Positions 3,065 to 33,364 of a stretch of DNA of 39,216 nucleotides are shown in pieces (the first letter of the stretch is position 1; the number at the start of each line of letters is the position of its first letter). This stretch comes from Verrucomicrobiales bacterium. Lineage in GTDB: Bacteria > Verrucomicrobiota > Verrucomicrobiia > Verrucomicrobiales > DEV007. A program made the translations under genes and the position numbers. Location: the NCBI GenBank assembly GCA_014239335.1, contig JAAZZC010000099.1:1-39216 (forward strand). The letters are read 5' to 3'. The notes under the pieces were generated by a model, which saw only the letters and a list, made by a program, of their open reading frames with translations, was not told the origin of the DNA and did no database searches.

Positions 3065-4285
3065 ATGAAAGAAGATACAGATCTCAGAAAAGACTTCCCA
3101 ATCCTTAGCCAGAAGGTTCACGGTAATCCGTTAATTTATCTCGATAATGCCGCTACGACCCAAAAACCACAGGCCGTCATAGACCGTCTATCTGATTTCC
3201 TGTCTAAGGAAAACGCCAACATCCATCGAGGCGTTCACTATCTGAGTATGAATGCTACCACATTATACGATGAAGCAAGGTCATGCGTAGCCAATTTCAT
3301 CAATGCGAATCATGAAGATGAAATTATTTTTGTTCGTGGGGCAACCGAGGCAATTAATCTTGTCGCAAGAAGCTTCTGTAATGAAAGACTTGAGCCAGGT
3401 GATGAAATCTTAATAACAGAAATGGAGCACCATGCTAACATCGTACCTTGGCAGTTAGTAGCCAGCGAAAATGGTGCACGGGTCGTCCCAGCACCGATCA
3501 CAGACGAGGGCGAAATAGATATTGACCAATTCGAATCATTACTGAATGAACGTACAAAGCTAGTGGCATTCGTACATGTATCGAATGCATTAGGAACCAT
3601 TAATTCGGCCAAGAAGTTGGTCGATCTGGCCCATCAAAAAGGAATACCCGTTCTCGTCGATGGGGCCCAGGCCGTAGCTCATCAGAAAGTCGATGTGCAA
3701 GATATAGGATGTGATTTTTATGTTTTTTCATCCCACAAGATATTTGGACCCGATGGTGTGGGAGTTCTATATGGGCGCAAAGAACTCCTCAATAAAATGA
3801 CTCCTTATCAGGGATGAGGAGACATGATAGAAATCGTTAGCTTTGATGGGACCACTTTCCGTCCTTCTCCAGAAAGATTCGAAGCGGGGACCCCAAACAT
3901 TAGTGGGGCAATAGGGCTCAAAGCGGCAATTGATTACGTTAACAACATTGGCTGGGAAACGATCCACAAAAAAGAATCTCTTCTCTTGGATCATGCTAAT
4001 GAATCATTGGGAAAAAATCCCTCAATAAAACTGGTTGGGACTGCAGAAAATAAAGTGCCTGTAGTCTCCTTTACGATTGATTCGGCTCATCCTCATGACA
4101 TTGCTACTATACTAGATACGAAGGGTATAGCTGTTCGTGCAGGTCATCACTGTACTCAACCCCTGATGAAAAGATTAGGGCTAAGTGCAACTACACGTGC
4201 CTCTTTGAGTTTTTATAATACGATTGATGAAATTAATCAATTAACTGAAGCGCTCAAAGAAATCAGCGCGTTATTTGAATCCTGA
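3065..4285 (+). pseudogene. sufS: Cysteine desulfurase SufS interrupted by an in-frame TGA
   Basis: PLP-dependent group-II cysteine desulfurase that feeds sulfur to Fe-S cluster assembly. The track shows it as two ORFs, 3065..3817 (250 aa) and 3824..4285 (153 aa), which lie in the same frame. They join through a single TGA at 3815-3817 inside the conserved Gly-rich loop, read as PYQG-stop-GDMIE where homologues have three Gly. One base change (GGA to TGA) explains it. Without the stop the product would be 406 aa, the normal SufS length. The first part carries the PLP lysine (FSSHKIFGPDG); the second carries the catalytic Cys loop (RAGHHC). The ATG at 3824 has GAGGAG only 2 bases upstream, too close for a good ribosome site. 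The downstream half shows no further decay, which suggests a very recent mutation, a sequencing error or readthrough. TGA is a normal stop elsewhere here, including the end of this gene. Confidence 0.85.
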
Positions 4286-4763: not shown

Positions 4764-5528
4764 TTATTTAACACGTCCAGTTGCCCAGAGAATACCATTA
4801 CTGACAAGATCAAGATATTCTTTAGCCTGCATAGTTTCATTGTGATGGCCTATTGTAGTTCCAAATACTCTCCCCTTACCATACTTGTTAACCCAAACAC
4901 AATCATGGGTAGACTTACCATTATCAATTGAGCCCTTCGCTAGGACCGTGGCACTTGGCCAGGTTTTCTTAATGTGATAAAGCTCTCCCTTCGGAGTGAC
5001 CCACTTCTTAGGAAATCCTTTCATGACCGGATGGTCTGGCTTTACGTTAGTTATCGTGATCGGGGCATGCTTCCCATGACGAGGCGAAGTGACTCCAAGC
5101 ATTGCAGGCCAGTGCTTTGTTTCACCAGGTATTTTCCAATGATATGAATGCATTGAGCAATGAATAGCTACTGCAGGCTTTCCAGATTCATGAATTTTTG
5201 CCAGCGAGTCGACGAACGAAGCATCTGTCTCATGAGCATGGCAAAGATTATAGACTACAATATCATAATCGTCGGCCCATCCTTTTTTACTGAGAGCTTC
5301 TTTCGTGCCTTTAGCGTCTTTGTGAATGACTCCCCATTTGACCGGAAATCTTTTACCAACTCCTTCAGTTAAGATCTTTTCCTGACCCTTGTAATCATGG
5401 TATCCGCCTCCGGTAACGAGCAGAGCTTTGATGGGAGGAGCTGCTTTTTTTTCTTCGGCAAACGAAAACATTGCAGCTGATACAAAAGCCACTATAGGGA
5501 AAAGAAGGAGAGTTACTGTACGAGTCAT
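4764..5528 (-). CDS. Secreted ThuA-domain protein
   Basis: ThuA-like (trehalose utilisation) domain protein with a class-I glutaminase-like fold. A cleavable signal peptide is clear (MTRTVTLLLFPIVAFVSAAMFSFA), so it is exported. Typical ThuA-family features follow: LLVTGGGYHDY near residue 36, a VVYNLCHA strand, AIHCSMHSYHW near the middle, a HPVMKGFPKKW segment, and the C-terminal WVNKYGKGRVFGTTIGHHNET that characterises this group in planctomycetes and verrucomicrobia. In rhizobia ThuA works with the Gfo/Idh/MocA oxidoreductase ThuB on 3-keto-trehalose, so this may be an isomerase or hydrolase for keto-sugars; that role is inferred. It converges on sufU with 14 bases between stops. Confidence 0.82.
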   Translation of the reverse strand: MTRTVTLLLFPIVAFVSAAMFSFAEEKKAAPPIKALLVTGGGYHDYKGQEKILTEGVGKRFPVKWGVIHKDAKGTKEALSKKGWADDYDIVVYNLCHAHETDASFVDSLAKIHESGKPAVAIHCSMHSYHWKIPGETKHWPAMLGVTSPRHGKHAPITITNVKPDHPVMKGFPKKWVTPKGELYHIKKTWPSATVLAKGSIDNGKSTHDCVWVNKYGKGRVFGTTIGHHNETMQAKEYLDLVSNGILWATGRVK

Positions 5529-11949: not shown

Positions 11950-12059
11950 TTGTACTTGGCAAAAGTGAGCTGAAATCGCTTCTAAGGCAATACACAAACC
12001 CTTACAATGCACTAGTGAGACCAAATATCTCAATAGAAAGGCTCAGCCCTTCACACCAA

Positions 12060-13157
12060 ATGCTCTTCATTGGGTTCGTCACGTGCCTCTGGCTCGTTAC
12101 CATCTCAGCTAGTGCTATCTCATGGCGTGACTGCGCGAATCAGGAAGAAGACTGGCACAAGACTGCCGAAGCAAAGCGCATCGGGAACAACGTCCTCTAC
12201 TTTCAGTCGGATTTAGGCGGTTGGTACAAAAACGACGGAAGTATCCATCCCTCAGGAAATGCTGCGATCGATGTGCACAGTCAAGAGGATAGAATGAAGT
12301 ACAAAGAGTCACTGGCGCAGCTCAAGTATCCATGCACCTTAGATAATGACGCGACTTGGTCTGAAATGCGTTTTCTCGCCAAGGTCCACGCTGCGACGGG
12401 TCACAGGAAGTACAAGGACGGATTTTTGAAAGGTCTTCGCTACTTACTCAAAGCACAGTATCCAAACGGTGGCTGGCCGCAGTTCTATCCTCTCAGACCA
12501 GGATACTCGAGCCGGATCACTTTCAACGATGGCGCTATGATCGGAGCCATTACGCTCCTCGACGATGTCGTACATCGCCGACCACCTTATGATCTCGCTG
12601 ACGACAGACTCCTGAGAAAATGTCAGGCCGCGGTGATGAGGGGCCGAGAATGTATTCTCAAATGCCAGATTATAGTAAATGGAAAAAAGACTACCTGGTG
12701 CCAACAACATGACCAACGGACCCTAGAACCGGCTCAGGGCCGCATCTCTGAGAACCCGTCCCTGTCCGGAGCCGAGAGCGTAGGCGTTATACGCTATCTC
12801 ATGTCAATCGATAGCCCTTCGCCCGAAATTATGGCAGCGATCGCAGGCGCGGTAAAATGGTTCAAAAAAGTTAAGATAACCGGGATCAGGGTCATCAACT
12901 TCGAGGACAAGTCGCTCCCCGGGGGCGTGGACCGAAAAATCGTTGTGGATCCGGAGGCGCCACCGATCTGGGCACGCTACTATGAGATCGGAAGTGACCG
13001 GCCCATGTTCATCGAAAAGGGAGTCGCGAAATACAAACTCTCGGAACTGAGCCATACCAAGCGCATCGGCCACTTATGGATTGGAGGCCGCTGGCCAGAG
13101 AATCTTCTGAAGGTCGAATACCCAGCATGGGTTGAGAAGCATCAACCCAAAGACTAA
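12060..13157 (+). CDS. pelA: Secreted pectate lyase, PL10 family
   Basis: Polysaccharide lyase family 10 pectate lyase, which cuts polygalacturonate by beta-elimination in an (alpha/alpha) toroid. Family signatures are strong: NGGWPQFYPLR, RITFNDGAMIGAI (the catalytic-domain FNDGAM motif), and TTWCQQHDQRTLEPAQGRISENPSLSGAES, which includes the region with the catalytic Asp and Arg. The GTG at 12015 is an alternative start; the ATG at 12060 opens a good signal peptide (MLFIGFVTCLWLVTISASA) and is preferred, giving 365 aa. Base composition is visibly more GC-rich than the flanking genes, so acquisition by transfer is possible. Divergent from sulfatase 1. Confidence 0.88.
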   Translation: MLFIGFVTCLWLVTISASAISWRDCANQEEDWHKTAEAKRIGNNVLYFQSDLGGWYKNDGSIHPSGNAAIDVHSQEDRMKYKESLAQLKYPCTLDNDATWSEMRFLAKVHAATGHRKYKDGFLKGLRYLLKAQYPNGGWPQFYPLRPGYSSRITFNDGAMIGAITLLDDVVHRRPPYDLADDRLLRKCQAAVMRGRECILKCQIIVNGKKTTWCQQHDQRTLEPAQGRISENPSLSGAESVGVIRYLMSIDSPSPEIMAAIAGAVKWFKKVKITGIRVINFEDKSLPGGVDRKIVVDPEAPPIWARYYEIGSDRPMFIEKGVAKYKLSELSHTKRIGHLWIGGRWPENLLKVEYPAWVEKHQPKD

Positions 13158-20328: not shown

Positions 20329-21579
20329 ATGAATCAAATGAAGATAATAAAACTCGTAATTCCCTTATGTATTTTGCCCCTCATGGACCTTCAGTCTCGG
20401 GAATCAAAAGAATATGATAATGACGTCAATTACGATGAAGCCAAAATTCCTCACTATGACCTCCCAAAGTTACTAGTAACGCCTGAGGGGCAAAAAATAA
20501 CCTCGATCAAGGAATGGAACGAAATTCGCAGACCGCAAATTCTATCACTCTTCAGTAACTTGGTTTATGGAAGAGTCCCTCAACCTCCAAGCCCAATCAA
20601 AGTCGATTTTGAAGTAGTTAAGAAAGATGACAAGTTCATGAAAGGGAAAGCAACCAGGAAGGACATTGACATTAAAATCAGTAACGAAAATGGAAATATA
20701 ACAATGCGTTTGATTGTCTTCTCACCTAACAGCGTTAAGGGCCCTGCCCCTGCATTTCTTAAGCACAGCTTCAATAATACCAGATCAAATGATTTCGACG
20801 CGTCTCCTTTCCGAAGAGGAAAACTAAAGAACGGTTGGCCCTTAGGTGAATTCTTTGATCGTGGCTATGGATTCTGCGCAGTGTACCATGAGGACCTTGT
20901 CAAACATAACGAAGTTGGTTTTGGTAATAGTATCCACAAATTATTTTACCCTAAGGGACAAAGTTTTCCGAAGGCCAGTGAATGGGGAGTCATTTCCGCA
21001 TGCGCTTGGGGAGCAATGCGCGCCATGGACTATCTGGAAAAAGATGAGGACATTGACCATACCAGAGTCGCCATAATGGGGCATTCGAAGATGGGTAAGA
21101 CGACTCTCTGGACTGCTGCTCAGGACGAGCGTTTTGCTTTGGCAATATCAGCACAATCAGGTTGTGCAGGGGCTGCCTTATGGCGAAGAAAATCAGGTGA
21201 AACTCTAAAGAAAATGGTCACTCGTTTCCCTTATTGGCTCTGTAGAAATGCTTGGAAATTTGTAGACCAAGAGGATGATCTTCCTGTCGATCAACACATG
21301 CTCATAGCTTGCATTGCACCCAGACCCGTATACATCCATAGCGGAGTCAAAGACACCTGGGCCGATGGCCGGGGAGAATATCTATCAGCTTATCATGCGA
21401 GCAAAGTCTATGAACTTTTCGGCAAAGAAGCGCTCAAGTCTGAAGAATCACCCGCTGTAGGAAAAGCAATCATTGAAAGCCATGTAGGATATCACATAAG
21501 AGAAGGCGGGCATTCGATCGAAAGCTTTGACTGGAAAAGGTTCATGGATTTTGCTGATCATCACTTAAAATCAAAATAA
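20329..21579 (+). CDS. Secreted CE15-type glucuronoyl esterase-like alpha/beta hydrolase
   Basis: Bacterial carbohydrate esterase family 15-like protein, 416 aa, with a short N-terminal hydrophobic leader (MKIIKLVIPLCILPLM). The nucleophile motif IMGHSKMGKTTLWTAAQDERF matches the bacterial GxSRxGK elbow, followed by the characteristic AISAQSGCAGAALWRR segment, LPVDQHMLIACIAPRPVYIHSGVKDTWADG, and EGGHSIESFDW with the catalytic His. CE15 enzymes cleave ester bonds of 4-O-methylglucuronate between xylan and lignin; marine homologues may act on other uronate esters. The canonical acidic residue of the triad is not obvious at the usual place, as in some bacterial members. ATG at 20329 or 20338 may start it. 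Followed at once by a PQQ-like protein and sulfatase 3. Confidence 0.8.
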   Translation: MNQMKIIKLVIPLCILPLMDLQSRESKEYDNDVNYDEAKIPHYDLPKLLVTPEGQKITSIKEWNEIRRPQILSLFSNLVYGRVPQPPSPIKVDFEVVKKDDKFMKGKATRKDIDIKISNENGNITMRLIVFSPNSVKGPAPAFLKHSFNNTRSNDFDASPFRRGKLKNGWPLGEFFDRGYGFCAVYHEDLVKHNEVGFGNSIHKLFYPKGQSFPKASEWGVISACAWGAMRAMDYLEKDEDIDHTRVAIMGHSKMGKTTLWTAAQDERFALAISAQSGCAGAALWRRKSGETLKKMVTRFPYWLCRNAWKFVDQEDDLPVDQHMLIACIAPRPVYIHSGVKDTWADGRGEYLSAYHASKVYELFGKEALKSEESPAVGKAIIESHVGYHIREGGHSIESFDWKRFMDFADHHLKSK

Positions 21580-22858: not shown

Positions 22859-24628
22859 ATGACATACAGGAAAATAATCCTCAGACAGTTCCATTGCCTC
22901 TTTTTATTCTTACTAATTTCCAGCGCTCAGGCCAAGCGACCCAATATCGTTGTTATTCTAACTGATGATCAGGGATGGGGGGACCTAAGCCTTAACGGAA
23001 ATAAAGACCTTTCCACTCCCAACATTGATTCCTTAGCTCATGACGGAGCACGATTCGATCGTTTCTTTGTTTGCCCAGTATGTTCACCCACTCGCGCAGA
23101 ATTCTTAACAGGAAGATACCACGTAAGGGGAGGCGTTTATAGTACCTCGACCGGAGGTGAACGCTTGAATCTGGATGAACTCACCATTGCAGATACATTC
23201 AAATCAGCAGGTTATTCGACGGGCGCATTTGGCAAATGGCATAATGGAATGCAATACCCTTATCATCCTAACGGTCGTGGGTTTGATGAATTTTATGGAT
23301 TCTGCTCCGGGCACTGGGGAGATTATTTCGGCCCTCCTCTCGAACACAATGGCCAGATAGTAAAAGGTGAAGGGTTTTGTATTGACGATTTCACGAATAA
23401 GGCCATGGCCTTCATGGATAGTTCTATCAAGGAAGGAAAGCCGTTCTTTGCTTATATTCCCTATAACACTCCTCACTCTCCGATGCAGGTCCCCGACAAG
23501 TGGTGGAATAAGTTCAAGGACAAGGAAATAAAACTCCATAACCGAGACCCCAGAAGAGAAAATATGCCTCACTTACGTTGCGCTTTGGCCATGTGTGAAA
23601 ACATTGATTGGAACGTTGGGAGGATCCTTAATAAAATTGAGGACCTAGGAATAACTAATGACACTATCGTGGTATTTTTCCATGATAATGGTCCAAATGG
23701 CGTGCGCTGGAACGATGGGATGAAAGGCCGTAAAGGTTCGACAGATGAAGGCGGAGTACGCTCTCCGTTACTGATCCGATGGCCAGGCCATATCCCAAAA
23801 GGAAAATTCATTAAACCAATTGCATCTGCATTGGATTTACTTCCTACGCTAGCAGATTGTGCAAGCATCCCAGTGACCAGTAAAAAAACTCTGGACGGAA
23901 GGACCTTGAAGCCTCTCTTGGTACAGGAAAAAAATTCTTGGAAAGAGAGGACCTTGATTAATTACTGGAAAGGTAAGGTCAGCGCAAGGACTCAACGATT
24001 CCGACTCGATCACCATAGAAAACTGTTTGATCTTATCAAGGACCCAGGACAACGGATCGATGTGAGCCGCACCCAATCCGAAGTAGCCAAACAGCTACTC
24101 AAGGAAGTCACCGAATGGGAAGAAAATGTACTTTCCGAATTGGTTAAAGATACCCGACCCTTCATTATCGGGCACCCAGACTATCTCTGGACTCAAATCC
24201 CTGCCCGGGACGGAGTGGCTCATGGTGGTATAAAGCGCTCAGGACGCGCTCCTAATTGTTCTTATTTTATGAATTGGAAACGCACCGAAGATAAAATTAT
24301 CTGGGACTGTGAGGTAGGATCCACGGGCACTTATGAAATTTCAATACATTATGCACTTCCAAAAGGAGATGAAGGTACAGTCTTAGAACTAAGTCACAAT
24401 CAATCCAAGATCCAATACACAATTACCGAACCTCACGAAGTACAAAACCGGGGCCACGAGAATGACCGCGTCACGCGTCGGGAATCTTATGTGAAAGATT
24501 TTAAGGAAGTAAAAATAGGGGGAATGAAATTAAATAAAGGGAAAGGAGAACTTACTCTGCGTGCCTTGGAGATTCCAGGAGACACATCAATTGAATTCCG
24601 CCTAATGATGCTCAAGCGAATTCAATGA
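22859..24628 (+). CDS. Secreted sulfatase 3 with C-terminal beta-sandwich domain
   Basis: Type-I sulfatase, 589 aa with a signal peptide ending near SSAQA. Metal motif LTDDQGWGDLSLNGN, formylglycine motif CPVCSPTRAEFLTGRY (C-x-P-x-R intact), AFGKWHNG and FFHDNGPNG are present. From about residue 440 a second domain follows the catalytic C-terminus, starting near GHPDYLWTQIPARDG and rich in beta strands with YEISIHYALPKGDEG. It resembles carbohydrate-binding beta-sandwich modules that appear on PVC arylsulfatases, so it may anchor the enzyme to its glycan. Third gene after CE15 and the propeller protein. It converges on the Tat-exported Gfo/Idh/MocA gene with a 7-base gap. Confidence 0.92.
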   Translation: MTYRKIILRQFHCLFLFLLISSAQAKRPNIVVILTDDQGWGDLSLNGNKDLSTPNIDSLAHDGARFDRFFVCPVCSPTRAEFLTGRYHVRGGVYSTSTGGERLNLDELTIADTFKSAGYSTGAFGKWHNGMQYPYHPNGRGFDEFYGFCSGHWGDYFGPPLEHNGQIVKGEGFCIDDFTNKAMAFMDSSIKEGKPFFAYIPYNTPHSPMQVPDKWWNKFKDKEIKLHNRDPRRENMPHLRCALAMCENIDWNVGRILNKIEDLGITNDTIVVFFHDNGPNGVRWNDGMKGRKGSTDEGGVRSPLLIRWPGHIPKGKFIKPIASALDLLPTLADCASIPVTSKKTLDGRTLKPLLVQEKNSWKERTLINYWKGKVSARTQRFRLDHHRKLFDLIKDPGQRIDVSRTQSEVAKQLLKEVTEWEENVLSELVKDTRPFIIGHPDYLWTQIPARDGVAHGGIKRSGRAPNCSYFMNWKRTEDKIIWDCEVGSTGTYEISIHYALPKGDEGTVLELSHNQSKIQYTITEPHEVQNRGHENDRVTRRESYVKDFKEVKIGGMKLNKGKGELTLRALEIPGDTSIEFRLMMLKRIQ

Positions 24629-24635
24629 ATATGAC

Positions 24636-26009
24636 CTAAAGCCATTCTTCCCTATCTTCCTTGCCAATATAAGCATCCGCTTCCGGATGACCCTTTACCT
24701 TCATCGCTTGCCCGTCCCACTGAATTTCTTTCTGCATCTTTAAGGCCACGATTCCGGAAAGGCCAATTTCCGTGAGGTGTCCTCCATGCTCAAAACTAGC
24801 AAAGGTTTTTCCTTTTCCTTTGCAAGCATCGACCCACTCATGCATGTGCCCCCTTGATCTAGGAATAGTTTTGGGAACGATTTTTGCAGCATCATGATTC
24901 CCTTCACCAATGTACTTCTCTTCTCCGTTCATCTTTATGTAGCACTGAGAGTTCCATAGTCCCGAAGAAAGCATTCCTTTATCACCAATAAAAATACAAC
25001 CTACCCTAGGCAAGCTACCGAAAGTTTTGACAGCGGCCTCTACAGCATAATTAGGCGGAACATCTTTTCCTCCACCAGTATAAATATTTAATGCGACATC
25101 ATGAGAGCGCTCCTTATTTTTGGAAAAGTGATACTTGACTGAGCATGACTTCGCAAAGGTTTCAGTGCCCAATCCTTCACCAGTGAAAGAAATCTTGGAA
25201 GGATAATCCAAACTCAGCGATCTAAGGGCTAAGTTAAATGAGTGGCAGCAGAAATCGCCTATAAAGCCGTTGCCAAAATCATACCATCCACGCCACTTGG
25301 CCGGATGGTAGATGCTTTCTTTGAAAGGCCGCACAGGTGCCGTTCCACACCAGAAATCCCAGTTCAGTTCTTTTGGCACTGGATCTGAACCCGCAGGCCG
25401 CAGACCACCACTTGGCCAATTGTGCTTTGGATGCCAAACATGAATCTCACGAATAGGACCAAAAACATCAGCCGCAATTAATTCCATGCTACGACGTAAA
25501 TTAGAAGATGCGCTGCCCTGATTACCAGTCTGAGTTGCGACCTTGGAAGCCTTAGTAAGTTCTCTAAGTTCTCTAGCTTCTTTAATTGTATGAGTCAGTG
25601 GCTTCTCGCAATAAACATGTTTCCCCGCCTTCATAGCTGCCCTGCAGATCGGAGCATGCCAATGGTCAGGCGTTGCTATTACGACTGCATCGACTGATTT
25701 TTCCTTCTCTATCAATTCTCTGTAATCCTCATATTCCTTTACCTTGTTAACCTTATTTCCGTGCCGGTTCTTGGAGTTTTCAATCTGCCTCTTATCCACA
25801 TCACAAAAAGCGGCAACGTGCTGTCCCTGATTAAGTATATTCGCAACATGTCCCTGAATCTGCCCACCCATCCCGATAAAAGCCACTGACAGTTTATCCA
25901 AAGCCTTAGTCTCTTTACCGTATAAGGTCCCAGAACGAAGAATGTTGAGTGATGTGCCTGCTCCTGAAGCAGCCAGCAATGCACGTCGAGTCAAAATCTT
26001 TTTAGCCAT
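24636..26009 (-). CDS. Tat-exported Gfo/Idh/MocA oxidoreductase
   Basis: NAD(P)-dependent sugar oxidoreductase of the Gfo/Idh/MocA family, 457 aa. A twin-arginine leader is clear (ILTRRALLAASGAGTS), so the folded enzyme with its cofactor is probably moved to the periplasm. The nucleotide fold begins at VAFIGMGGQIQGH, the second half of the fold is VVIATPDHWHAP, and the catalytic Lys motif is VYCEKPLTHT. WHPKHNWPSGGLRP and DFWCGTAPVRPF are signature blocks of the PVC Tat-dependent group, and WYDFGNGFIGDFCCHSFN is the active-site region. Relatives of this layout carry tightly bound cofactor and oxidise glycosides, in some cases at C3. It is the last gene of the leftward run, 57 bases after the NagB-like gene. 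Confidence 0.88.
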   Translation of the reverse strand: MAKKILTRRALLAASGAGTSLNILRSGTLYGKETKALDKLSVAFIGMGGQIQGHVANILNQGQHVAAFCDVDKRQIENSKNRHGNKVNKVKEYEDYRELIEKEKSVDAVVIATPDHWHAPICRAAMKAGKHVYCEKPLTHTIKEARELRELTKASKVATQTGNQGSASSNLRRSMELIAADVFGPIREIHVWHPKHNWPSGGLRPAGSDPVPKELNWDFWCGTAPVRPFKESIYHPAKWRGWYDFGNGFIGDFCCHSFNLALRSLSLDYPSKISFTGEGLGTETFAKSCSVKYHFSKNKERSHDVALNIYTGGGKDVPPNYAVEAAVKTFGSLPRVGCIFIGDKGMLSSGLWNSQCYIKMNGEEKYIGEGNHDAAKIVPKTIPRSRGHMHEWVDACKGKGKTFASFEHGGHLTEIGLSGIVALKMQKEIQWDGQAMKVKGHPEADAYIGKEDREEWL

Positions 26010-26066
26010 TCCCTACATTATCACGAACAGGTACACAGTGTCTTGTTAATTCGAACACTCTAGCGA

Positions 26067-26999
26067 TTAATGCATTTCAACATCACAACTTCCTAGGCCA
26101 CCCCGATAATAATTGAACTGCACATTTGGATGATCCGCCAGCAATGACATCGGAACAGCAGTATCAGCAATTCCCTTAGAAATCATTAAAGCCGTCAACC
26201 GCTGACCAAACGGATTATCATGAGTGCCTGCTTGCCAGATTGAAACCTTATCTGATTTCCATGTTTGAACTGGGCCGACCGTGATCGCCCTCTCAGGAAC
26301 TAGAGTGATATTGCCGCCGCCTGAGGTCCTAGCATTCTGCGCCAAGGTGATGGGATGCAGTTCCACGACTCGTGTTGAGAGTTTCCGGTATTGATCCGGT
26401 GATGGAGGAGATTCCTTATATTCTCCTTCACGGCGCGGAGGATCGTTAAAAGCCCAATGCTTAATATCACCCTGCCCCCCCTGCATCAGCGCGCAACGGA
26501 CCCCTTCCCATGAATTGATGTAATCCTTAGTATCCGCAGCAGGAAAATGCATATTTGACTCAGGCATTTGCAGATCCTCGGAAATGCGATCAAAGCACAA
26601 CTCCCTATCAGCTCTTTCAAAGGAAAGAGGATGTGAAATTGCTACTTCCTTCCCATCCTCACCTAACCATTCATCCATTCCCCAAAAATGTGCCGCGGAA
26701 AGATCCAATCTGAGCTCATTCACGAGCCTTGCAACGAGCGGCAATTGTTCTGTAGGGCCTATAGGACCACATATGCCCACTGGGTTATCAAGGGTAGAGG
26801 ATTGCCAAGCACTAATGTATTCAAGAGCTTCGGCCAAATAAAAATCTTCCAAAGTGTCATACATGACTACCTTGAAACCTGGACGCGACAGTTGCTCCAA
26901 GTCTTCCATACTTAATGAGGCAACATCACGAATTAAATCATCATCAAGTGTAGTGTAGTCCCACCATCCAGGGGCTATTGTGCTTAGTTTTCTGGCCAT
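26067..26999 (-). CDS. NagB-like (glucosamine-6-phosphate deaminase family) protein, divergent active site
   Basis: NagB/RpiA-fold protein, 310 aa. It keeps [11 protein letters not shown] (phosphate-binding loop region), [10 protein letters not shown] with the MDE motif, and [14 protein letters not shown] as the catalytic loop. In Escherichia coli NagB this loop is GVGNDGHIAFNEP, where Asp141 is the ring-opening general base, His143 its partner and Glu148 a relay. Here the His is kept, but Asp141 aligns with Ile and Glu148 with Asp. The closing [19 protein letters not shown] block is unlike classical NagB. It may deaminate or isomerise a different amino sugar. It lies 7 bases after a PIG-L deacetylase gene, a natural partner that would remove the N-acetyl group first. 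Confidence 0.8.
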
Positions 27000-27006
27000 C
27001 TAAGGT

Positions 27007-27801
27007 CTAATTATCCAAGTTATATTCCGGGTTTAAATAGTACAGTTCTCCGAGAGCTTCTGAAAGCGGATCCTCTTCATTTTGGCTAAAACCAAGATGA
27101 GATCTTCTCCTCCAACCCTCAGCATAATCAAATTTGCCTGACATTTCTCCGAGCTCACCGGACATATCCTCCATAGACATGAGATAAGAATTCATTCCCT
27201 GACTAGATTCGAGCCAAGAATGCTGGCTCTTATGCTCTGCGAGAGCAACTCTTTTACTATCCATGACTGACGAAATATCAACGTACGCTTCAGGAATTAC
27301 TTTCTTTCTCAGCCCACCTCTCAATCCATGAGGCATGGCATGATATACGCTAGTCTGATGTCCATCAAGATGACTCGTTGGAGGATCAGTAACAAAGTTA
27401 GGCATACCATGAGTGAAAGCTGCAGTGACGGCTAAACGGGACGTTTCCATATGATCTACCATGTAATCTTCAGGAGAATGTGTAAGGACAATATGTGGCG
27501 CCGCGGACCGAATCACTGAGGACAAGCGCCGGAGCAGATCCACGGAATAGACAATCTCCAGATCATCACATAGGGGAGGGTAATACTTAGCGCCTAAATA
27601 TGCTGCCGCGCGTTGGGCCTCATCCTGACGAACTTGCCGAGTCTCTTCAGCATCCATATCTAATGAACCACAATTTCCACTGGCAATGGTAACATAATGG
27701 AGACTCCATCCGCGAGCAGCCAATTGAAGCATCGTACCCGCAAAGAGGAACTCAATATCGTCCGGGTGGGCGACTATTGCGATTGCATTTTTAGTCACCA
27801 T
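27007..27801 (-). CDS. PIG-L family deacetylase
   Basis: Zinc-dependent N-acetylglucosaminyl deacetylase-like protein (LmbE/BshB fold), 264 aa, no signal peptide. The catalytic N-terminal motif AIVAHPDDIEFLFAGT gives the metal His and the Asp general base, and HSPEDYMVDHMETSRLAVTAAF supplies the second His cluster. It removes acetyl groups from amino sugars or their conjugates in the cytoplasm. It overlaps the end of the preceding Gfo/Idh/MocA gene by 11 bases and is followed 7 bases later by the NagB-like gene, so all three are probably one translational unit. The trio looks like a route for an N-acetylated sugar; phosphate dependence and exact sugar are unknown. Confidence 0.9.
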   Translation of the reverse strand: MVTKNAIAIVAHPDDIEFLFAGTMLQLAARGWSLHYVTIASGNCGSLDMDAEETRQVRQDEAQRAAAYLGAKYYPPLCDDLEIVYSVDLLRRLSSVIRSAAPHIVLTHSPEDYMVDHMETSRLAVTAAFTHGMPNFVTDPPTSHLDGHQTSVYHAMPHGLRGGLRKKVIPEAYVDISSVMDSKRVALAEHKSQHSWLESSQGMNSYLMSMEDMSGELGEMSGKFDYAEGWRRRSHLGFSQNEEDPLSEALGELYYLNPEYNLDN

Positions 27802-28822
27802 TAATTTCTGAAATTTTCACAGGCCTTCCAAGCTCAGCTGATCTGTCAGCGGCAAAAACAACTTCAAAGCTCTTATAAGCTTCATTGATTGAGGTCAGTG
27901 GCATTTCCTCTCCCTTAGCCATCGAATCAAAGAATGCCTGAAACTGAGTCGTGTAGGGATGGTCACTCACATCACCAGAATCCAACATTTTCATTGATAA
28001 TGAACTCCAAGACCCTTTGTCAGTGGAGAGTTTTTCAGAATGAAACTTATTGTCTAGCAAGCTCCCCTCTGAACCGACAAGATGAGTATGAAAGTAATAA
28101 GGTTGGAGACAATCGATGCATGAGGTTGCTTTGCCTACACGCCCATCAGTGAACTTCATTATAGTGGTCGTAGTCGTGGGATATTCGTAATCAGAAAAAG
28201 TAGGGCTCGCTGAAACCGCAGCATATGAACTCACTTCCTCAACATCACCTCCCATACAAAGGAGCAACGCGTCGAGTGCATGACACCCGGCCGAAAGCAA
28301 ACTACTTCCTCCGTGTTCCTTTCCGGTATTCCAACGAAATTGTCCATACCATGGTCCAATGCCATGATAATAATCCACTTCACCATAGTGAATTTCGCCC
28401 AGCAACCCATCATCAATGACTGACTTAGTAACAAGGAACTGACTTGAATATCGACACTCAAAACATACACAAGTTCGAACATTCGCTTCCTCAACAACTG
28501 AACGAATTTCGGAACAGTCCTCAATGGACAATGCGAGTGGCTTTTCAAGGATAAGATGCTTTCCTGCTCTCGCGGCAGCAATCGCATGTTCCTTGTGCTG
28601 GCCCGGATAACTGCAAATAGAAATCACTTCAATGTCATCTGATGAGAGCATTTCTCCAAGGTCCTGAAATGCCTTGATAGATGAACCGTGCTTCTTTGAA
28701 AGCTCATTCTCATCCTGAGGACGAGAAGAACAAACTGCAGTCACTTCGATCCCATCAATCGAATTGAGGGCATCAATATGAGCTCCTGCGACCCAACCGT
28801 ATCCAACAATACCAACATTCAT
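27791..28822 (-). CDS. Cytoplasmic Gfo/Idh/MocA oxidoreductase
   Basis: NAD(P)-dependent oxidoreductase, 343 aa, without leader peptide, so cytoplasmic, unlike the 457-aa family member at the end of this cluster. The dinucleotide fold opens with VGIVGYGWVAGAHIDAL, ISICSYPGQHKEHA is the second half, and LILEKPLALS holds the catalytic Lys. HGGSSLLSAGCHALDALLLCMG is the usual His/Asp active-site helix. It leads the tight trio with PIG-L and the NagB-like gene and lies 70 bases after the DUF1080-sulfatase fusion. It may oxidise or epimerise an amino sugar released from a sulfated glycan; this is inferred from neighbours. Confidence 0.9.
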   Translation of the reverse strand: MNVGIVGYGWVAGAHIDALNSIDGIEVTAVCSSRPQDENELSKKHGSSIKAFQDLGEMLSSDDIEVISICSYPGQHKEHAIAAARAGKHLILEKPLALSIEDCSEIRSVVEEANVRTCVCFECRYSSQFLVTKSVIDDGLLGEIHYGEVDYYHGIGPWYGQFRWNTGKEHGGSSLLSAGCHALDALLLCMGGDVEEVSSYAAVSASPTFSDYEYPTTTTTIMKFTDGRVGKATSCIDCLQPYYFHTHLVGSEGSLLDNKFHSEKLSTDKGSWSSLSMKMLDSGDVSDHPYTTQFQAFFDSMAKGEEMPLTSINEAYKSFEVVFAADRSAELGRPVKISEINGD

Positions 28823-28892
28823 GTATCAATTTTACCAAATCCTGTGGACTTGGAAAAGCCAATAATGAAGATTGATCAGTGCTAGAAAACTC

Positions 28893-31442
28893 TCAATTAG
28901 ATTTCTTTTTTGCTGGCATGAAACTACCGGCCCCTGGTGAAAAATCCCAAGGTTCTGTTTTTTCGCCAAGCCCATCAAGAAATGCACCACTCGAAAAAGC
29001 TATGAAAAAATTATTATCACCAGGCTTATGGCGAGTCTTCGCGTAAAGTTTCTTCATTGTCCCTAGGACTGGCTTTGCCTTTGGTCCCAATAATTCAATT
29101 GCACGGCAAGCTTGCAAAGCGACTGCCCAATCAGGATGCTCAAGATCTTTCACTAATCGATTAAGAGCCGCTTCTCTTTTTTCAGGAAAAAACGCCAACC
29201 ATCCGGCAATCTCAATCCGGACAGAGGGTGCAACGTCCTGAATCCATTCAAATGCGCTTTGCTGGATGCTCTTTTCACCAAAGAACCCATTCCTAAGAGA
29301 AACTGCAGCCCAATACCTCTCATTAACATTCCCTTTTTTAAGAAGTTCAAGAAGTTCCTTAGAATCAGAAGTGCCTACTTTATCAGCGGCTGCCCATGCC
29401 CTCTCGAGGTCAGGAGAATGGTCCGTCTTACCAATAACAATGTCTCTCATTGGGCTACCTTCGTTCTTTACCCAACGACGCATTTCACTTTCAGGCAAAG
29501 CACCTAAGTCTCCGACTGCATTGCGGTGTTCAACTAAGCCTAACCGTAATCTCTGTAATGCTTTCTTGGCCTCATCTGACAACTTTCCAGAAATCAAATT
29601 GCGGGTATTGTCAGGATCATTTTCACAATTATAAAGTTCTTCAGTTGCCCTTGTGGGGCCGGCATAGTGCCTCTGAGCGACACTAGATGAATTAGGATCC
29701 TCTCGGAAAACTCGGGAAATTTCATACCGTATTTCACCAAGATCGGAAAATACTGAAGGCTGGTTCCAGGAAAGATGGGGATGATAATTACGTATGTATA
29801 ACCATCTCTTATTTCGTACTGATCTGGAACAATCAAATACTTCATCGACCCTGTCTCTATTACCAAAAACAAATTTCCTTTTCTGGGTAGAGCCAACACC
29901 TATAAAAGGAATTCCTTGCATATATTTTGGTGATTTGAGACCAACTAATCCAAGAACTGAGGGTGGAAAATCAACAAAACTCACCAATTGATCCGTCGCG
30001 GAACCGGGAGCAGTTGGACGAAGATGTTTCCATTTCTCAGGAACATGTATAAGCATGGCAACTTTCATCCCACTATCATGCAATAGCCTTTTATGACGCG
30101 GCATTCCGGAACCATGGTCAGAGAAGAAAAAAACAATAGTATTATCAGCCAACCCGTCCTCATGCAATTGGCTCATAATCTCACCGACACGCTGATCCAT
30201 GGCCGTTACACAATCATAATATCGGCTAATAGCTTTTCTTATGAGAGGCGTGTCAGGATAATAGTCAGGGACCGGAGCCTTCTTAGGATCATGAATTTCA
30301 GAAGCCGACAATTCAGATTGAACATGTTTTTTAAAAACAGAATAGGGCCAGACCATTGAGCGGGACTGGTGGCTGGTCATAATATTAAAGACAGAAAAGA
30401 ACGGCTGCCCCTGACTTCGATTCGGGTTGCGCCAGTGAGCCTTAGGACTCGATTCATCCCATGATTCTTTGATCAGACGTGCAGCATCACTACTGTTATA
30501 GTCTGTTTTAACATTATTAGTTGTATAATAACCTGATTTCCTCATATAGGCCGGGAAGCCCCTGACCCCCGTCGGCAAAGGAAATCCGGACCTCATCTGA
30601 TGAGTCCCAGTCGAGACATTGTGCATTCCAGTGATCAGGACCGACCTTGAAGGAGAGCAGACAGGAGAAGCTGCAAAAGCATTGGAGTATCTTGTCGAAG
30701 ATTTGGCCAACTGATCAATGTTCGGAGTGATCGCATATTTATCTCCATAACAACCCAGAGTCGGGCTCATATCTTCAGCCGTGATCCATAAAATATTGGG
30801 TCTCTCCTGAATTTCTTGCGTCACTTTTTTATTAGAGATTTCACGGGCCCTGATATTCCTGAAACGAACAGTCCCTCCTTTCCCATGATGCTGGATACCA
30901 AAATAACCCTTTAATATCTTTCCATGCTTAATATCTGATACGGGCTTTCCATTCAACCATGTTTGGATCCTCTCTCCGACAGCCTTCACTCTAAAGTGAT
31001 TCCAATCATCTTTCTTAAAATTACCACGAATTCTTTCAGCAAACTCTTTGGTCTGGCCTTTTCCTGGATAGATCCAACCACCATTGCCGATCCCATAAAC
31101 TCCGCCTGGCTTTTGTCGATCAATCTCACACTGGTATCCTTTAGGACGACCCTGATTACCAATGCATCGGAAGGCTAATCCGGAATTAAATCCCTCTTCC
31201 TTTGGCATAAGAACTTCAATCTCTGCCTCAAAATCACTCATCTGAATCTCAGTAGTGACCCAACAATTTGTCTTCGATAGCAAATGGAGCTCGCCTCCCT
31301 TAGCATCAAAAGAAATGACCTCAGATCTCGGCTTCCAACCCTCAGTAGTCTTACCATCAAAAAGCTCAATCCACTCTGCACTGGCCCTGAAAACCATCAT
31401 CAGAGAAAAAGTGAAAATACAAAACAGTCTTAAGTAGATCAT
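28893..31442 (-). CDS. Secreted DUF1080-sulfatase-HEAT fusion protein
   Basis: An 849-aa exported protein with three parts after a signal peptide (ends near FRASA). Residues ~24-205 are a DUF1080 (3-keto-disaccharide hydrolase, LamG-like) domain: EWIELFDGKTTEGWKP, LAFRCIG, GYQCEIDRQKPGGVYG, KKDDWNHFRVKAVG and VRFRNIRARE. Residues ~213-650 are a type-I sulfatase: LWITAEDMSPTLGCYGD, formylglycine motif PVCSPSRSVLITG, and FFSDHGSGMPRHKR. Residues ~690-830 are HEAT-like helical repeats (ERYWAAVSLRNG, APSVRIEIAGWLA, WAVALQACRAIELLG). The sulfatase and tail resemble the upstream neighbour, so it is probably a tandem duplicate that gained the N-terminal domain. One chain could bind or cut a keto-glycoside and remove sulfate. 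Confidence 0.88.
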   Translation of the reverse strand: MIYLRLFCIFTFSLMMVFRASAEWIELFDGKTTEGWKPRSEVISFDAKGGELHLLSKTNCWVTTEIQMSDFEAEIEVLMPKEEGFNSGLAFRCIGNQGRPKGYQCEIDRQKPGGVYGIGNGGWIYPGKGQTKEFAERIRGNFKKDDWNHFRVKAVGERIQTWLNGKPVSDIKHGKILKGYFGIQHHGKGGTVRFRNIRAREISNKKVTQEIQERPNILWITAEDMSPTLGCYGDKYAITPNIDQLAKSSTRYSNAFAASPVCSPSRSVLITGMHNVSTGTHQMRSGFPLPTGVRGFPAYMRKSGYYTTNNVKTDYNSSDAARLIKESWDESSPKAHWRNPNRSQGQPFFSVFNIMTSHQSRSMVWPYSVFKKHVQSELSASEIHDPKKAPVPDYYPDTPLIRKAISRYYDCVTAMDQRVGEIMSQLHEDGLADNTIVFFFSDHGSGMPRHKRLLHDSGMKVAMLIHVPEKWKHLRPTAPGSATDQLVSFVDFPPSVLGLVGLKSPKYMQGIPFIGVGSTQKRKFVFGNRDRVDEVFDCSRSVRNKRWLYIRNYHPHLSWNQPSVFSDLGEIRYEISRVFREDPNSSSVAQRHYAGPTRATEELYNCENDPDNTRNLISGKLSDEAKKALQRLRLGLVEHRNAVGDLGALPESEMRRWVKNEGSPMRDIVIGKTDHSPDLERAWAAADKVGTSDSKELLELLKKGNVNERYWAAVSLRNGFFGEKSIQQSAFEWIQDVAPSVRIEIAGWLAFFPEKREAALNRLVKDLEHPDWAVALQACRAIELLGPKAKPVLGTMKKLYAKTRHKPGDNNFFIAFSSGAFLDGLGEKTEPWDFSPGAGSFMPAKKKSN

Positions 31443-31501
31443 AATAGTAAATATTAGTTTCGGCTCGTTGAAAATGAAATCAGAGACTTCCTAATCATAA
31501 A

Positions 31502-33364
31502 TTAAGGGACCCTATTTTCGGTCCCGAGCAAGTCATTCAGTGCTCGGTTCGCAACTCTAAGAATATATTTATTAGGTTGTCTGGTACTTAGGACCTCCTT
31601 TAGGTCCTTGACCATTTTCCGAGCCGATTCCTCCATCTCGTCAATGACAATGGTCGCCGCGAGCCTTCCCCACTGATGCTCAGACCGAAGCTCTTCTTTT
31701 AAAACTTCCAGTGCTGCATCCGTATTACCTAAGCGAGCCACTGCCCGAGCAGCAGCGATTCGTACACTGGGGGATTGATCCTTCATTGCCTTCATCGACA
31801 ATTCTAACGCTTTTCCCTTAGCAGCTTTTCCTATATTACCAATGCCAGTCAATGCCCAATACCGTATGGCAGGATCCTCATCTGAGATGGCACCCATCAG
31901 TTCTCCAAGAGCCGAGGGCCCTTCTGATGCTTGTGTAGCAATTGATACTAATCGTTGAATCTGACCCCTGTCAGATGATTCCTCATTCATAATTTCAAAT
32001 CTAGAACCTGCCTTCTTCTCTCTAATTTCGATCTCCGCCTCAGGAATGAGACCAATGTCACCTATTTCAGATTGCCATTGCGCCAAATGAACACGCATTT
32101 TTTTCAAAAGTGCTGAGTGCTCAGGATTGTCTGCCAGGTTACGAATCTCATGAGGATCATTCTTAAAATCATAAAGTTCTTCGACGGGCTTCTTGCTAGT
32201 TGAAAAAATCTTGCCTATTTCAGTCAGAGATCCATCCTCCTCTGCTCTCCTTATCTCACGCATGGTCGCTCCTTTTTCCGGTGTATTCATGTACTGATAG
32301 TAGGGCTTCAGAGGCTCAAAGTTCCGGATGTATCGATAGCGCCCATCAAAAATAGAGCGGATAATATCGTACCTTTCATCCATTCTATCTCTTGCCCCGA
32401 AAACAAAACGGCGAGGAGTGGATAATTTCTGACCCAAAAATGCTCTGCCTTGTAATTTTTCAGGAACTTCAATCCCAGCCAGGTTCAATACCGTAGGCCC
32501 CAGGTCAAGTGAACTCACCAATTGCGCATCTACTTTTCCCCCCTCCTTGCCAGGTACACGAACGATCAGAGGAATGTGCGTTCCGGAACCATAAAGCCAA
32601 CGCTTTGCACGAGGCAAGCCCACACCATGGTCAGCCCAAAAAAATATGATTGTTTCCTCGTAAAGCCCAGCATCTTTAATTTCTTTGATAAGAGATCCTG
32701 CCCAAGAATCCATCGCTGTGATCAGTTCATAATTCCTTTTCCAGTCCTCTCGGACCACAGAAGTGTCCGGATAATACGGGGGCAAAGTATCTAACTTGGA
32801 CGGATCCTGCCTCTGTTCAGGTTTAAGATTACTCGTGACAGCCTTGTACTTACCTTCGGAAGCGATTCCACTCTCGTGACATCCAGTATAATTAAATACC
32901 GCAAAGAACGGCTGACCTTTCTTTCGATTCTTCCAGTGAGCCTTTGAGCCACTCTGGTCCCATATTTCTCTAGTCGATGGTCTTGAAAACTGATAATCCG
33001 TTTTGGAGTTATTAGTACAATAATACCCGGAGCCCCTAAGAAGAATTGGAAAAGGTTTGAGCCAGGAAGGCAGGACCGCATTACATCTCATATGATGGGT
33101 ACCAATACTGTTCTGATACATGCCAGTTATGATTCCACTGCGGCAAGGCGCACAAACTCCTGCAGTCGTATAAGCGTTAGTGAAGCGTATCCCTTCGGAA
33201 GACAATTGATCAATGTTGGGAGTAATCGCATGCTGATCACCATAGCAACCAAAATGAGGGCCAATGTCCTCTGCGGAAATCCAAAGTATGTTTGGTTTAG
33301 CACATACTTGCAGCACTGAAAACAGTGGAAATAAAGCACCTAATAAAAATATCTTCTTAATCAT
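31502..33364 (-). CDS. Secreted sulfatase 5 with C-terminal HEAT repeats
   Basis: Type-I sulfatase of the heparan N-sulfatase-like group, 620 aa, with a signal peptide (IFLLGALFPLFSVLQVCA). Metal motif WISAEDIGPHFGCYGDQ, formylglycine motif AGVCAPCRSGIITGMY and FFWADHGVGLPRAKRW are present. The motif has an extra Cys (CAPCR) where most sulfatases have Ser or Thr; the C-x-P-x-R core is still intact. Residues ~470-610 are HEAT-like repeats with DPAIRYWALTGIGNIG, SPSVRIAAARAVARLG and HQWGRLAATIVIDEM, a common tail of PVC-phylum sulfatases, likely for protein contact. It heads the leftward run and is divergent from the photolyase genes across 202 bases. Confidence 0.92.
   Translation of the reverse strand: MIKKIFLLGALFPLFSVLQVCAKPNILWISAEDIGPHFGCYGDQHAITPNIDQLSSEGIRFTNAYTTAGVCAPCRSGIITGMYQNSIGTHHMRCNAVLPSWLKPFPILLRGSGYYCTNNSKTDYQFSRPSTREIWDQSGSKAHWKNRKKGQPFFAVFNYTGCHESGIASEGKYKAVTSNLKPEQRQDPSKLDTLPPYYPDTSVVREDWKRNYELITAMDSWAGSLIKEIKDAGLYEETIIFFWADHGVGLPRAKRWLYGSGTHIPLIVRVPGKEGGKVDAQLVSSLDLGPTVLNLAGIEVPEKLQGRAFLGQKLSTPRRFVFGARDRMDERYDIIRSIFDGRYRYIRNFEPLKPYYQYMNTPEKGATMREIRRAEEDGSLTEIGKIFSTSKKPVEELYDFKNDPHEIRNLADNPEHSALLKKMRVHLAQWQSEIGDIGLIPEAEIEIREKKAGSRFEIMNEESSDRGQIQRLVSIATQASEGPSALGELMGAISDEDPAIRYWALTGIGNIGKAAKGKALELSMKAMKDQSPSVRIAAARAVARLGNTDAALEVLKEELRSEHQWGRLAATIVIDEMEESARKMVKDLKEVLSTRQPNKYILRVANRALNDLLGTENRVP

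Follow-up and report, generated by a model that had tools for sequence, protein, structure and literature searches.

Amino sugars form a large marine pool of carbon and nitrogen. In the textbook account, bacteria begin their use by phosphorylating them. In the archaeal route of chitin breakdown that involves diacetylchitobiose deacetylase (Dac), the deacetylase is partnered by a glycosidase, a kinase, and a deaminase, and the NagB-LmbE fusion proteins (PRK02122/NF002557, ~640 aa) consist of a NagB domain and a PIG-L domain. In Bacteroides thetaiotaomicron, BT2158 is a periplasmic glycoside 3-dehydrogenase required for disaccharide use (PMC11300592), and BT2157, a DUF1080 protein, is a 3-ketotrehalose hydrolase (PMC9007349). 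The heparin pathway of Pedobacter heparinus ends in glucosamine (PMC10154612), and sulfatase family S1_8 includes the N-sulfoglucosamine sulfohydrolases of human (SGSH) and of P. heparinus (PMC5066984, PMC10154612). Here we compare these systems with a six-gene run at positions 24636-33364 of a 39,216-nucleotide stretch of DNA (the window; contig JAAZZC010000099.1 of assembly GCA_014239335.1) from a Verrucomicrobiales bacterium. The window genome is incomplete (2.89 Mb, 59% complete), and isolate names and sulfatase-rich content suggest that its near relatives are marine.

The initial annotation, made from the nucleotide sequence, had described a leftward run of six genes, and both the open reading frames and the Pfam domains agree with it. 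All six open reading frames lie on the minus strand in one compact run, with intergenic gaps of 7-70 bp and a single 11-bp overlap (27791-27801) between the third and fourth genes. The first gene encodes an S1 sulfatase with C-terminal HEAT repeats (31502-33364), which is kept in both genera discussed below; it is followed by a protein with an N-terminal DUF1080 (3keto-disac_hyd) domain, an S1 sulfatase domain, and weak HEAT repeats (28893-31442), and by a Gfo/Idh/MocA dehydrogenase without a signal (27791-28822; hereafter cytGfo), with conserved EKP and AGCHxxD motifs. The remaining genes encode a PIG-L/LmbE-type de-N-acetylase (27007-27801; hereafter PIG-L), an altered NagB homologue (26067-26999; hereafter NagBL), and a Gfo/Idh/MocA protein related to BT2158 with a twin-arginine signal for Tat export (24636-26009). 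Judged by eye, the N-terminal sequences point to export of both sulfatases and of the last Gfo/Idh protein, and to a cytoplasmic location of the inner three proteins.

We lean toward the interpretation that this run is a two-layer catabolic operon for a sulfated amino-sugar glycan. The two formylglycine-type sulfatases and the BT2158-like glycoside 3-dehydrogenase would work outside the cytoplasm to prepare a glycan or oligosaccharide that is sulfated and contains amino sugars. Inside, PIG-L would strip the N-acetyl group from the amino sugar, NagBL would carry out aldose-ketose isomerization and deamination in the manner of glucosamine-6-phosphate (GlcN6P) deaminase on a sugar that is probably not 6-phosphorylated, and cytGfo would oxidize or reduce the sugar before or after the PIG-L and NagBL steps. 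The inner cassette would have spread as a module by horizontal transfer in Verrucomicrobiota and other phyla, and the outer layer would have joined it in two related genera. Amino-sugar catabolism is well supported, and the deacetylation-deamination half has strong comparative support that reaches far beyond the window genome; desulfation and 3-keto chemistry make up the other half, a local addition whose putative activities have plausible homology behind them, and cleavage through C3 oxidation without a glycoside hydrolase (GH) is unproven. Computation shows the domains, gene order, co-inheritance, fold, residue replacements, and how the phyla nest in the NagBL tree; the substrate, the order of reactions, the non-phosphorylated state, and C3 oxidation are inferred.

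Distribution and co-inheritance of the inner cassette

The six genes are kept in identical order and strand in two related Verrucomicrobiales genera (g1 and g11), at 68-84% protein identity across the two. The complete order was found at L031 (genome G188), L032, L131 (G027), L173 (G365), L174 (G366), and L153 (G096); L032 and L173, whose contigs have equal lengths (67,571), are probably one record. The complete run occurs in five other genomes. Five further loci (L175, L154, L155, L156, and L157) have an agreeing order that is interrupted by contig ends, and the genomes with agreeing fragments are G367, G179, G148, G125, and G165. Among the loci compared, none beyond g1 and g11 held the six-gene run. 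The initial annotation had asked whether the genes stay together across genomes of the Planctomycetes-Verrucomicrobia-Chlamydiae (PVC) group; their order holds in the two genera, and we rejected a pan-PVC unit of all six. The core of the run is PIG-L and NagBL, often with cytGfo, and the inner three genes occur as a cassette of their own in several bacterial phyla; the sulfatases and the exported BT2158-like 3-dehydrogenase were added to it locally.

In the genome collection, at least 588 stretches matched NagBL, and the best 80 of them are 74-93% identical to the window copy. The matches listed include Verrucomicrobiota, Planctomycetota, Bacteroidota, Kiritimatiellota, and Omnitrophota, with 74-80% identity across these phyla; an alignment of 39 NagBL sequences from several phyla has 82% mean column identity and more than 100 invariant positions. 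In a tree of 83 NagBL sequences, Bacteroidota are nested within Verrucomicrobiota at two separate supported places, and Planctomycetota appear at two places, the second poorly supported. Because both phyla are split in the tree, NagBL was probably transferred between phyla at least twice, albeit with the reservation that the titles of metagenome-assembled genomes may be wrong. Within the Segetibacter family, 4 of 150 genomes hold a near-full-length NagBL at ≥64% identity.

Co-inheritance was counted from close matches across one set of 190 genomes from the order, where NagBL occurs in 88, PIG-L in 90, and cytGfo in 115. In 176 of the 190 genomes, NagBL and PIG-L are either both present (82) or both absent (94), with six genomes holding NagBL only and eight holding PIG-L only; the co-occurrence has an odds ratio of 161 (Fisher p = 1.7e-36, uncorrected for shared ancestry). 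All six of the NagBL-only genomes are <90% complete. A same-strand PIG-L lies near NagBL in up to 36 of 68 dereplicated loci with flanks (32 orthologous and 4 of another lineage), and an opposite-strand PIG-L in none of the 68.

PIG-L matches PF02585 at 88.1 bits (threshold 28.2), and its AHPDD and DYMxDH metal motifs are conserved across 71 orthologues. Its closest solved structure is a diacetylchitobiose deacetylase; the operon resembles the Dac route in this deacetylase and differs from it in the partners, which here are NagBL and Gfo/Idh proteins and there a glycosidase, a kinase, and a deaminase.

At three Chitinophagaceae loci (L060, L061, and L111), the cassette adjoins a GH20 hexosaminidase and an FGGP/NagP-type permease of the major facilitator superfamily (MFS), and each locus has its own gene order; "NagP-like" is a reading of the sequence, since Pfam gives MFS_1 only. 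These neighbors suggest N-acetyl amino sugars as the substrate. The PIG-L/NagBL pair at L061 has a divergent neighbor, an AraC-type regulator that carries a sugar-binding domain. GH20 also adjoins the cassette at L084. A general tie between NagBL and GH20 was rejected, as GH20 occurs in 7 of 88 NagBL genomes versus 46 of 102 others; the tie is confined to Chitinophagaceae and L084. We also dropped a NagX-like gene that lies upstream of NagBL at L074, as it occurred once and has no Pfam match.

Exported proteins and the cleavage step

Both operon sulfatases match PF00884 and carry the C-x-P-x-R formylglycine motif (CAPCR in the first gene, CSPSR in the DUF1080 fusion). Among solved structures, S1_8A/B/C come closest to them (E = 3e-76 and 1e-66), with SGSH further away; the S1_8 label thus denotes the nearest structure and not a SulfAtlas assignment. 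S1_8 is the family of the P. heparinus heparin sulfatase Phep_2826, and the likeness would fit an amino-sugar glycan; the family may hold other activities. The six-gene operon differs from the P. heparinus system in that it has no polysaccharide lyase or GH88 and has HEAT tails and the DUF1080 fusion.

The exported Gfo/Idh protein matches BT_2158_fam (NF058561) at 298.8 bits (E = 6e-89), below the equivalog cut-off of 750 bits, and PDB 8tdf with E = 1e-64. It is a homologue of the BT2158 glycoside 3-dehydrogenase, its own C3 oxidation activity being putative, and the tie to 3-keto-sugar enzymes seen in the initial annotation is borne out to that extent. The DUF1080 domain matches PF06439 at 113 bits (threshold 26.8). 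A BT2158 homologue and a member of the BT2157 family thus share one operon here, as in the BT2157-BT2159 3-keto-disaccharide system; however, DUF1080 is here fused to a sulfatase, and the available parts of the reports on that system (PMC11300592, PMC9007349) make no mention of PIG-L, NagBL, or sulfatases.

These likenesses lend some weight to a route that dispenses with glycoside hydrolases, in which the exported Gfo/Idh would oxidize an N-acetyl amino-sugar glycoside at C3 after its desulfation, DUF1080 would cleave the resulting 3-keto glycoside, and PIG-L and NagBL would remove the acetyl and amino groups from the 3-keto amino sugar thus released. DUF1080 also adjoins the cassette at L055 and L095, GH20 is scarce among NagBL genomes, and a hexosaminidase search confined to GH20 found none in the incomplete window genome, nor any in G027, a close relative that is 94% complete. 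As the initial annotation had stated, the 30 window proteins scanned with Pfam include no GH family member and no SusC/SusD pair of the kind that would mark a Bacteroidetes-type polysaccharide utilization locus. However, DUF1080 domains are so common (23 in the incomplete window genome and 23-37 per genome in its family) that one in the operon is weak evidence; the exported enzyme and DUF1080 are unlinked to the cassette in most genomes, the BT_2158_fam score falls well below its cut-off, and in Chitinophagaceae the hydrolase beside the cassette is GH20. We regard this route as doubtful, and we continue to favor the broader two-layer operon.

Predicted fold and active site of NagBL

NagBL has no Pfam match, PF01182 included, and it scores 20.9 bits against TIGR00502 (cut-off 236.9) and 15.5 bits against NF002557. 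AlphaFold2 nevertheless predicted a structure (mean predicted local distance difference test score, pLDDT, 87.6) whose top Foldseek matches in the PDB are all GlcN6P deaminases (best E = 2.4e-15), followed by 6-phosphogluconolactonases, with TM-scores of 0.6-0.8 to GlcN6P deaminase structures (3hn6, 1dea, and 7lqn among known NagB). NagBL is thus predicted to have the NagB fold, and the label "altered NagB homologue" is right because of this predicted fold.

In E. coli NagB numbering, we take the catalytic residues to be Asp72, Asp141, His143, and Glu148, and the phosphate site to comprise Lys208, Arg172, and the TGG loop. In an alignment with canonical NagB, which at ~20% identity may misplace loops by one residue, NagBL keeps the equivalents of Asp72 (Asp109) and His143 (His181), whereas Asp186 replaces Glu148 and position 179, equivalent to Asp141, is Ile, Val, or Thr. 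NagBL also carries an N-terminal extension of ~40 residues. At the phosphate site, the Arg172 equivalent (Arg224) is kept and invariant, Asp261 aligns with Lys208 and is invariant in the 39 sequences, and the TGG/TGS loop has become GPI/GPT.

These replacements bear on whether the substrate of NagBL, as of ordinary NagB, is a phosphorylated amino sugar, in a route that runs in parallel with canonical NagA and NagB. The retained arginine would suit such a substrate, and sugar kinases lie near some copies (FGGY at L054, PfkB at L110); however, the conserved cassette itself contains no kinase, and the invariant aspartate and altered loop speak against it. We consider a phosphorylated substrate unlikely. 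A non-phosphorylated substrate for NagBL is plausible because the charge has changed at the phosphate lysine.

A widespread cassette whose NagB homologue is invariantly altered, belongs to no Pfam family, and is tightly co-inherited with a deacetylase points to a route other than the textbook one. As a tentative extension, less assured than the two-layer operon itself, NagBL may represent a new family that isomerizes and deaminates amino sugars lacking a 6-phosphate, possibly 3-keto forms; with PIG-L and Gfo/Idh it might make up an unrecognized phosphorylation-free pathway in multiple phyla, coupled here to extracellular desulfation and C3 oxidation. A PIG-L/NagB/Gfo operon was not described in the literature searched, an absence that is no proof. 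The cassette offers three small soluble targets, which are also present in cultured organisms such as Segetibacter koreensis and Ilyomonas limi.

We rejected NagBL as a substitute for canonical NagB, as 16 of 20 NagBL genomes hold NagB above the cut-off and NagB is nearly universal in the order. None of the g1 genomes tested holds NagA above the cut-off, and most hold NagB above it; the organism may lack the usual NagA step, although genome G000 is incomplete and the absence of NagA there means little. The NagB-LmbE fusions resemble the operon in pairing a NagB fold with a PIG-L-type domain, but each fusion is one protein, whereas here the two are encoded by adjacent genes and NagBL belongs to a separate, remote lineage. 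Across the order, NagB matches with above-threshold scores frequently fall in open frames that are ~640-700 aa long, like these fusions (PRK02122); genus g1 has a short canonical NagB instead.

Several further NagB-type sequences were observed. At L138 (G135:C30), the intact NagBL is followed ~8 kb downstream by a second copy, which is partial and contains an in-frame stop. At L162 (G007:C132, 4438-5692), a remote NagB-fold relative (30% identity to NagBL) directly adjoins a PIG-L protein (32%) on the same strand; this is a second NagB-type and PIG-L pair, whose NagB-type member belongs to a remote sister group of NagBL at ~30% identity. Distant NagBL homologues (25-32%) occur on Haloarcula and Vibrio plasmids, where the gene context is uninformative.

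Relationship between the two layers

The initial annotation had placed all six genes in one pathway. Its deacetylation and deamination steps are upheld by the co-inheritance of PIG-L and NagBL, the GH20 and NagP-like neighbors, and the likeness to Dac, whereas the sulfatases, DUF1080, and the exported dehydrogenase are not linked to the inner cassette outside g1 and g11, and one general pathway of all six is not supported. The six genes might merely be adjacent, in which case the sulfatase pair would share a transcript with the amino-sugar cassette by chance in one clade: orthologues of the DUF1080-sulfatase (55-61% identity) occur in other genera with no cassette nearby, an exported Gfo/Idh orthologue adjoins NagBL in two genera only, and most genomes with the cassette have it without sulfatases. 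Chance adjacency is nonetheless improbable, to about the same degree as a phosphorylated substrate, given short gaps and an order that is the same across two genera at the protein identities given above.

Several observations weigh against the two-layer operon that we favor. The substrates and activities of all six proteins are putative, and members of S1_8 need not all act on amino sugars. NagBL lies apart from PIG-L in many genomes, the co-inheritance counts are uncorrected for shared ancestry, and 30 genomes that lack both NagBL and PIG-L hold a cytGfo orthologue, so cytGfo has other uses. Genomes with the cassette retain canonical NagB, so the cassette is no replacement for it. The cassette has various transporters as neighbors (FGGP-like MFS, NHS in Opitutae, and an amino-acid permease at L045 and L110), and these fix no single substrate.

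The window copy of cytGfo has Ser where the catalytic Asp is usual. The least likely alternative is that the cassette acts on another polyol or conjugate (of the N-acetylglucosamine-inositol or N-acetylglucosamine-malate kind), with an MshB/BshB-like PIG-L and an inositol-type Gfo/Idh dehydrogenase: PIG-L does reach 97 bits against BshB1 and cytGfo 129.7 bits against inositol 2-dehydrogenase IolG (TIGR04380), but both scores are far below the curated cut-offs (182.5 bits and, for the IolG equivalog, 355 bits), the GH20, permease, and AraC/periplasmic-binding regulator neighbors suggest catabolism, and we know of no NagB-fold partner in thiol biosynthesis.

Other features of the window

A third S1 sulfatase, identified with Pfam and carrying the motif CSPTR (22859-24628, plus strand), is convergent to the run and ends 7 bp from its last gene. 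It is a conserved neighbor in genus g1 and is probably a separate transcript. The ThuA gene (4764-5528) and the AP_endonuc_2 TIM-barrel gene (1440-2366), which the initial annotation had tied to keto-sugar chemistry, are both present in the window, at a distance of 20-30 kb from the run, and their link to it is conjectural.

A SufS-type cysteine desulfurase gene (3065-4285, plus strand) is broken by an in-frame TGA at 3815-3817; because eight relatives of the genus keep the frame open at this place, the TGA is probably a point change or an assembly error in the window genome. The window also encodes a pectate lyase (Pec_lyase; TIGR02474 above the cut-off) at 12015-13157 and a glucuronyl-esterase-like protein at 20329-21579, both on the plus strand, so carbohydrate-active enzymes other than glycoside hydrolases are present.

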